Assembly (NCBI RefSeq): GCF_027107535.1
Contig: NZ_CP114283.1
Location: 6,014,001 to 6,078,000, forward strand
DNA: 64,000 bases
Origin: Streptomyces aurantiacus
GTDB taxonomy: Bacteria; Actinomycetota; Actinomycetes; Streptomycetales; Streptomycetaceae
Reading direction: 5' to 3'
Shown here: positions 1 to 9,413 of the stretch, piece after piece
How positions within the stretch are numbered: the stretch's first letter is position 1
How the letters are laid out: each line of letters starts with the position of its first letter
Position numbers and translations under genes: made by a program
Notes under the pieces: model-generated
Seen by the model: only the letters and a program-made list of their open reading frames with translations
What the model was told of the DNA's origin: nothing
Databases searched by the model: none

Positions 1-3000
1 GTGGGTCCGTAGAGGTTGGAGATCCGTCGGCCGGGGCCGCCACCGCTACCCGCACCCGCACCCGAGGGAACGGCTTCGAGCAGGTCGAACCAGCGCCGCA
101 CATGTTCGGCAGGCAGTGCCTCGCCTCCGACGTGGACCCAGCGCAGGGCCGACAGGTCCGGGGTACGGCCGTCCTGCCGGGCACGGTGCTCGGCAGCGGT
201 CAGCAGCCGCTCCCACAGGGTCGGCACCGAGCTCCACACGGTGATCCGGTCCTCCACGAGGCGGTCCAGGAGCGCTTCGGGGTCGCGCAGCAGGTCCCGG
301 GTGAGGGTGTGCACGGTGGCACCGACGAGCAGCGGGGCGAGCAACTGGCGTACGGAGGCGTCGAAGCAGACCGAGGCGGTCTGCACGAGCCGGTCCTCCG
401 GGCCGTAGCCGAAGGTGTCCACCGACCATGCGAGGTAGTTGGCCATGGACCGGTGGGTGACCGGTACGGCCTTGGGGCGCCCGGTGGAACCCGAGGTGAA
501 GATCACGTAGGCGATGTCGTCGGGGCCGGGCTCCCGGGCCGGTTGCCGCACCGCCGACATGGGGCGGTCGGTCTCCACGAGTCCGAGTCCGAGTTCGAGT
601 CCAGCTCCCGCCCCTCCTCCGCCCAGCTCGGCGGCGGCCGTCCTGTTCGTCTCGTCGAAGACCAGGACCCGCACCCCGGTACGGCTCAGCTGGTCGCGGT
701 GTCGCGCGGCGGGGTGCGTGGCGTCCATGGGCACCCAACCGGCCCCCGAACGCAGGATGCCGACCACGCCCGTGACCGTGTCCGCGCCGGGCTCGGTCAG
801 CAGTCCGACCAGGTCCCCGGCCTGTACGCCGTGTGCGCGCAGCCGGGCCGCGAGGGCGGCGGAGGCGTGATCGAGGGCCGCGTACGTGAGCGTGGTCCGG
901 CCGGTGTCGACCGCGACGGCCTCGGGCGTGGCCCGGAAGCGTGCGCACAGCCGGTCCACGATCCCGTTCCCCGCCCCCGCCCCCGCCCCCGCGGACGAAG
1001 TGTGCTCGGGGTGCGCGGGGTGCGCGGGAGCGGTCGTCCGAGGCGTTGCCGTGGACTGCGCCGAGGCGGCCCGCAGTTCGTCGACGAACATGCCCGCGAG
1101 CTGTCGTACGGTCTCGGGACGGAACAGCCGCTCCGGGTAGTTCCACGACAGGCGCAGGCTCGCGTCGGCCTCCCAGCACAGGAGTCCGAGCCGGGTCGCG
1201 GCGGAGGCGGTCGCCGCCGCGGTCGGTGTCACGGTGACCGGCCGGTCGGAGCCGTGCAGCACGGGGAAGCGGGCGAAGCTGAAGCCCGCCTCCGCGGCCG
1301 TACGCGGCACCGGGCCACCTGCGGGCAGCAGCCGGGCGAAGTCGGGGCTGCTCAGGGTCGAGTGGGCCTCGGCCTCGCGCCAGATCCGCCGCAGCCGCCG
1401 GGCCAGTACGGTCACGGGTTCGTCGAGGTCGACGGTGGCGAAGACCGGCAGGGTGTCGGCCAGCGGCCCGACCAGACGGTCGATGCCTGCGAGCGGCATC
1501 TCACGGCGCGCCCGTGCCACGTTGACGGCGACGGACCGCCGACCGGTCCATCGAGCCAGGCAACGCCCGTACACCGCCAGCAGCAGGTGGAACAGCGAGA
1601 CATCGTGCCGGGCCGCGGTCTCCCGAAGGGCGGTCGTGAGCGCCTCGTCGACAGCGATCCGGTGATGGGTGAACGGCGGGGCGGGCGGCGCCTCGGGGTC
1701 CCCGTCGTACGGCAGCGCGGGGGCCGTCGTCGCGGCGAGATGCCCGGCCAGTCGTTCACGCCAGTATTCCCGGTCCCGTGCGTACGACGCCGATCGCCGC
1801 TCGGCGGTGACGGCTGCCGCGTAGTCGGTGAACTCGGCGCGTGCGGCAGGGAGTTCTGGTATCTCCGTGCCCAGGGTGAGTGCGGTGTAGAGCGTCCAGA
1901 GGTCCTCGCCCAGCACCTTGAGGCTGTATCCGTCCGCGGCCGAATGGTGGACGGCCAGCAGCAGGTGGGCGAGATCCTGCTTCTCATGCACGAGGACTGC
2001 TCGGACCGGGTCCTCCACGGTCAGGTCGAACGGCCGGTTGCACAGGTCCCGTTCCAAACGGTCGAGGTCCCGGTCCGAACCCTGACTCGAGCCTCGGTCC
2101 GAGAGCCGGCCCAGGTGCTGGTCCTGGGCCGACGTCGTGGCGCGCCGCAGGTCCCGCACCTCGTACCAGCGAGGCCCGGTGTCGACGGGCTCGACGGGTA
2201 CGACGTACTGGCCGGGCCGCGCGTCGTCCCGGGTGAGGCGCATACGCAGCATGGGGTGGCGGGCGGCGAGGTGAGCGAGTGCCAGGCCGAGCAGCTCGTC
2301 GTCGAGGGGTCCGCTGACGGTCTGGCGTACGTAGGCGAAGGCGGTGATGCCTTCGTGGAGTGTCTCGGTGGTGTGGAAGGCCAGCTGGACGGGCGTGAGG
2401 GGACTGGTGCGCCCGTCCGCGCCACGGCCCCCGCCCTGGCCTTCCTCGCTGTCGCCACTGTCCTCCGCGTCGCTGTCATGCACCTTGGAAGGCAAGGCAG
2501 TTGGCACGTACGTGTCGGTCACCGAAGGCGCTGCGAGGTGCCCGGCGAGTTCGCCGATCGTCCGGTACTCGAAGAGCAGGGTGGCGGGAAGGGATCCCCC
2601 GAGCTCCCTCTCCAGACGGCGCGCGAGGTCGACGGCGGTGAGCGAGTCCAACCCGAGCGTGAGGAACTGGTCGTCGTCCCCGATGTCCTCCGGCGCGCGA
2701 TGCACCGCTTCGGCCAGCAGTCGGCGAACCAGATCCGCGATGTGGGCCGAGTCCGGTCCGGAGGTGCCTGCGGGCAGGCGGCCCTGGTGCTCCTGGGAGC
2801 CTTCGGGCGGTGCGGGACTCCCGCTGTCCGTCGCGGCGGCTGGTCCGGCGGGGCCGTGGCCTCTGTCGCGGTCGGCAGCCTCCCCCGGGTCACCGGGACC
2901 GGACGGGGGTGCCTCCGCGCGGCCCGTCACCGTCACATGGGCCGCGTCGACGCCGACGGCCGTGCGCAGACCCGCCAGGGCGGCCCGGGCGGACATCGGC

Positions 3001-9413: not shown

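Follow-up and report, generated by a model that had tools for sequence, protein, structure and literature searches.

The closest described relatives of the gene reported here include the following assembly lines, cited from the available sections of the papers. Several cyanobacterial peptides carry a terminal primary amide. HcaD of the hectoramide pathway ends in a domain that is 83.5% identical to one in VatR and is believed to offload the product by terminal amidation (PMC10949194). Hybrid polyketide synthase/nonribosomal peptide synthetase (PKS/NRPS) lines led by a fatty acyl-AMP ligase (FAAL), such as those of puwainaphycin and microginin and the olefin synthase, start with FAAL and an acyl carrier protein (ACP), as does this gene, and the olefin synthase has the same ketosynthase-acyltransferase-ketoreductase-ACP (KS-AT-KR-ACP) extension but, unlike this gene, ends in a sulfotransferase and a thioesterase (PMC11837247). 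The available sections of that review do not mention a TAD ending for FAAL-led lines, "Streptomyces" is absent from its main text, and no such system appears in the available part of its product table.

Here, we describe a megasynthase gene at the left end of a 64,000-nucleotide stretch of Streptomyces aurantiacus DNA (the window; NZ_CP114283.1, positions 6,014,001 to 6,078,000). The gene carries a whole assembly line, in which a fatty acid is probably lengthened, joined to one amino acid and released via an unusual unit. It appears to represent a widespread one-gene pathway with an orphan product and an unusual ending, consisting of a second condensation domain (C2) and a TAD-like domain.

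Extent and domain order of the gene

Within the window, the gene is a minus-strand open reading frame (3..9413; 3,137 aa) that is stop-free on translation and open at the window edge. In the 9.9-Mb genome, which comprises two contigs, the same frame continues for 3,679 bases beyond the left edge, to window position -3678, giving an uninterrupted gene of 4,363 codons that is not truncated. The start called earlier at 9413 is plausible, with residues upstream of codon 17 present in 113 of 115 homologues, and an alternative start at 9365 is favored by our own gene caller and the closest homologue (P0003).

Pfam searches of the whole protein revealed ketoacyl-synt (1.6e-72), Acyl_transf_1 (7.5e-50) and KR (2.9e-36) domains, three PP-binding domains, two Condensation domains and two AMP-binding stretches, with no match to DH, ER, MT or TE at E 0.01. 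Motif scans detected SSGSTG in the FAAL, GGSS in ACP1, DTACSS, EAHGTGT and KANLGH in the KS, GHSVGE and HAFH in the AT, GGAGGLG and Y..AN in the KR, GLDS in ACP2, HHSAADG in the first condensation domain (C1) and TSGSTG in the adenylation (A) domain. The gene thus contains a type I PKS module with a KR only (KS Cys-His-His, a malonyl-type AT, KR motifs and neither DH nor ER) and an NRPS module consisting of condensation, A and peptidyl carrier protein (PCP) domains (HHxxxDG, A core motifs and the PCP Ser). Both analyses confirm the FAAL-ACP-KS-AT-KR-ACP-C-A order in one gene given in an earlier note on the window. That reading was incomplete, since PCP, C2 and the TAD-like release domain lie past the window. 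The domains, including the malonyl-type AT and the absence of a DH, also support its prediction of one malonyl extension, ketoreduction without dehydration and N-acylation of an amino acid; a beta-hydroxyacyl chain would be handed to the amino acid because a KR is present and a dehydratase is not.

The first AMP-binding domain is most similar to FAALs. Its best PDB match is 3pbk, "Fatty Acyl-Adenylate Ligase" (1.3e-71), and FadD23, FadD32 and FadD28 outrank CoA ligases; 6ulx and McyG, which are not named FAALs, are also high among the matches. Among NCBIfam models, NF006624, "fatty acyl-AMP ligase," scores highest, at 346 bits for the domain alone, below its cut-off of 600. The stretch following YGLAE, compared with 3pbk alone for the FAAL-specific insertion, shows small gaps only. 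A PP-binding domain comes next to the FAAL.

The C2 and terminal TAD-like domains

The line ends in C2 and a domain with the TAD/AAR fold, AAR being the cyanobacterial long-chain acyl-ACP reductase, rather than in a thioesterase. The terminal domain matches the carmabin TAD over nearly its full length in both sequence and fold and is closer to it (27-29% identity) than to AAR (18-20%). The motifs DDSxPHCF and TTGH are common to the terminal domain and TAD, and the alignment combined with the numbering range would place Cys4292 at the position of TAD Cys2238. Cys4292 is Cys in all 116 aligned sequences and in all 45 wider rows. The alignment comprises the query and 115 homologues of at least 3,500 aa, drawn, after five shorter ones were dropped, from 120 listed homologues, which were themselves taken from the 375 matches to the terminal domain among 1,428 scored candidate proteins. 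The terminal domain retains an Asp of the kind that typically marks a cofactor site for NAD(H), as opposed to NADPH. The AAR equivalog model (TIGR04058) was rejected, scoring 22.2 bits against a cut-off of 449.7. The C-terminal 388 aa had no Pfam match to an SDR-type NRPS terminal reductase or to a thioesterase, with three sub-threshold matches of NAD-binding type only.

C2 is intact and interposed between PCP and the terminal domain. Its motif HHxIGDG is constant in the 116 aligned sequences, and in 118 of the 120 listed homologues HHxxxDG lies on the upstream side of TTGH at a distance of no more than 650 aa. The terminal domain is therefore a relative of TAD, but the module is not of the cyanobacterial PCP-TAD type, because C2 intervenes.

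Stand-alone genes of this kind were noticed elsewhere. On a plasmid of Streptomyces sp. NBC_00470 (L014:14884-20406), a TAD/AAR-like gene lies near genes for an ACP and a KS and three proteins without Pfam matches, which may together form a small separate lipid pathway. On Pantoea stewartii plasmid pCN101 (L013:10417-27271), a TAD-like gene belongs to a PKS/NRPS cluster that also encodes a MupA-type monooxygenase.

Conservation, distribution and surroundings

The key catalytic residues of all domains are constant or nearly so in the 116 aligned sequences, and the median identity per domain is 61-73%. The FAAL SSGSTG motif is kept in the 115 ungapped of the 116 rows, with the last G replaced by R in one row. 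The A-domain code reads DARSHGLINK, in the GrsA numbering that we presume to apply, and all 116 sequences agree at its positions except 322 (L in 115, M in 1) and 330 (I in 101, V in 15). Such conservation indicates that the same amino acid is loaded, and probably the same product made, across the family. No product name was seen among the generic source names of the 120 listed homologues.

The terminal-domain profile matches 72 of 392 Streptomyces genomes at E <= 1e-20 and 67 strongly (E below 1e-150), and for 58 of these 67 strong matches, with the S. aurantiacus genome counted, the surrounding frame is 3,726 codons or longer. The earlier remark that hybrids of this kind are less well known from Streptomyces than from cyanobacteria and mycobacteria is thus misleading as to rarity. 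In a class-wide sample, 11 of 394 genomes matched, 9 of them Streptomyces, and homologous loci also occur in Nonomuraea, Microtetraspora and Micromonospora. Loci were compared for 80 of 153 relatives, and the frame is open over the upstream stretch examined in 73 of the 80. The gene is a stand-alone locus found in different places, including a Streptomyces fungicidicus plasmid, where the homologue lies among unrelated genes. No neighbor gene is shared throughout the compared loci, the commonest neighbor family occurring in 16 of 80 loci on the 3' side and in 3 of 20 on the 5' side. Together with the near-constant A code, this suggests one small conserved product without dedicated tailoring genes.

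Left of the window, a GDSL-type esterase gene (L010:5014-6195) is convergent with the megasynthase end, and TetR and porphobilinogen deaminase genes lie beyond it, an arrangement shared among the 80 loci only by the near relative L015. The small contig has an NRPS/PKS frame given as 3,742 codons (G000:C1:2948-11686), with a single internal TGA reported in one condensation match (2948-4261). By eye, putative transposase genes were seen at window positions 45782-46849 and 39060-39797, and a run at 61308-63999 that we take to be cobalt-transport-like cbiM/N/Q/O.

Features of the megasynthase gene (window positions unless prefixed; genome C2 is a contig)
Feature	Position	Strand	Extent	Details
Megasynthase gene, in-window part	1..9413	-	codons 1-3137 of 4363
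Megasynthase gene, left end	window -3678 = genome C2:6010322			whole gene L011:4322-17413:-
FAAL	7770..9374	-	residues 14-548
ACP1	7434..7646	-	residues 590-660	Ser within GGSS
KS	5706..7211	-	residues 735-1236	Cys897
AT	4776..5597	-	residues 1273-1546	GHSVG + HAFH (malonyl type)
KR + presumed structural half	3057..4211	-	residues 1735-2119	Tyr2088, Asn2092
ACP2	2535..2732	-	residues 2228-2293	GLDSL
C1 condensation domain	1047..2408	-	residues 2336-2789	HHSAADG
A domain, first part	1..935	-	residues 2827-3333	ends at window -585
PCP, left of window	L011:7139-7351		residues 3355-3425
C2, left of window	L011:5684-6928		residues 3496-3910
TAD-like domain, left of window	L011:4325-5488 = genome C2:6010325-6011488		residues 3976-4363

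Release of the chain and relation to known systems

The domain families point to the following route. The FAAL would adenylate a free fatty acid and load it onto ACP1, the KS and AT would extend the chain by one malonyl unit, and the KR would yield a 3-hydroxyacyl chain on ACP2. The A domain would load an amino acid onto PCP, and C1 would acylate it. The N-(3-hydroxyacyl)-aminoacyl chain may then pass from PCP to the invariant Cys4292 and be released from it, with a primary amide as the likeliest product. C2 may act beforehand, altering or cyclising the chain while it is bound to PCP, or may provide the amine. We would give an even chance to the gene being a complete one-gene lipo-amino-acid synthase with TAD release, most likely of a primary amide. 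The main rival, possible but unlikely in our judgment, is release of the AAR type, in which the acyl-Cys would be reduced once by a nicotinamide cofactor to an N-(3-hydroxyacyl)-amino aldehyde. AAR, a relative of the terminal domain, makes aldehydes; the amide is favored because the terminal domain is far closer to TAD than to AAR, has DDSxPHCF and TTGH in common with TAD and keeps the cofactor Asp.

Several points weigh against release as an amide, beginning with the product of AAR just named and the low identity to the carmabin TAD. Cys4234, near the active site, is constant in the 116 sequences but is Cys in 41 of the 45 wider rows, and the His before it varies too (His in 38 of 45). The PDB titles give "TAD" without its full form, and we infer that it stands for terminal amidation domain. 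The interposed C2 means that the cyanobacterial release chemistry may not carry over; in HcaD and VatR, compared here by published description rather than sequence, the release domain directly follows PCP, the amidation is itself a published proposal, and the mechanism of such domains was unstudied as of 2024 (available sections of PMC10949194). The position of C2 also enters into two further readings. One, which is doubtful, is that C2 and TAD form a new two-domain release machine, in which C2, acting like dehydrating or terminal C domains, would alter or cyclise the chain, and TAD, with bound NAD(H) and Cys4292, would free an amide by a redox-neutral route from thioester through hemiaminal; about 1/6 of Streptomyces species would then use one gene to make the same conserved lipo-amide, which might serve as a signal or as a surface lipid. 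The other, slightly more doubtful, is that C2 releases the chain in the manner of terminal C domains, to a free amine or by cyclisation, and that the TAD-like domain, for all its invariant Cys4292, serves another step or substrate.

Compatible with any of these, the product may be a lipid or lipopeptide already described from Streptomyces, its gene either still unassigned or assigned in a paper outside this search. Many Streptomyces genomes carry the gene, and the search covered open-licence PMC papers, with MIBiG not part of it; this search found no matching known cluster or product and no such assignment, the available sections of PMC10127204, PMC11877528, PMC8949500, PMC3388780 and PMC13291983 hold nothing on this system, and the actinobacterial entries in those of the FAAL review PMC11837247 do not match. 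The sole hybrid PKS-NRPS in a list for Streptomyces scabiei, BGC 18 with core gene SCAB_43961, is called cryptic, and its log2 changes range from -0.5 to -0.9 (available sections of PMC8914351). From locus numbering and type, SCAB_43961 appears to be locus L047 (contig NC_013929; three segments with 65%, 62% and 71% identity). An already known product is improbable, in keeping with the novelty proposed earlier, although the locus is not new as sequence because the architecture is common in Streptomyces. A relic gene, decaying or silent, is very improbable. In-frame stops upstream in 7 of 80 loci, one of which (L081) is left with a 234-codon frame, may be splits, errors or decay and also count against a complete synthase throughout the family, but the frame and catalytic motifs are intact here and across relatives, most strong matches lie in the long frames counted above, and RNA-seq values showing a small change are given for the probable S. 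scabiei homologue (PMC8914351).

The results suggest a widespread orphan lipo-amino acid in Streptomyces, which may have gone unnoticed because a cluster of one gene seems incomplete. Daptomycin-type systems resemble the present gene as FAAL-primed lipopeptide systems of actinobacteria but rely on a FAAL, an ACP that stands alone and large NRPSs with a special first C domain (available sections of PMC9113097). Cyanobacterial AAR (6jzq-6jzz) differs from the terminal domain in its low identity and in a cofactor-site residue, and it is not known to be part of a megasynthase. Daptomycin-type systems, to our knowledge, have no PKS extension. The carmabin, vatiamide and hectoramide modules of marine cyanobacteria, whose release domain is called TAD or "amidotransferase," share with this gene the fold and sequence family of the carmabin TAD and a Cys at the Cys2238 position. 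In contrast to them, C2 stands here between PCP and a TAD of 27-29% identity to that of carmabin, and FAAL, PKS, NRPS and TAD are united in one polypeptide of a Streptomyces host. A relative of a cyanobacterial release domain here closes one complete gene, in a genus that is easy to handle.
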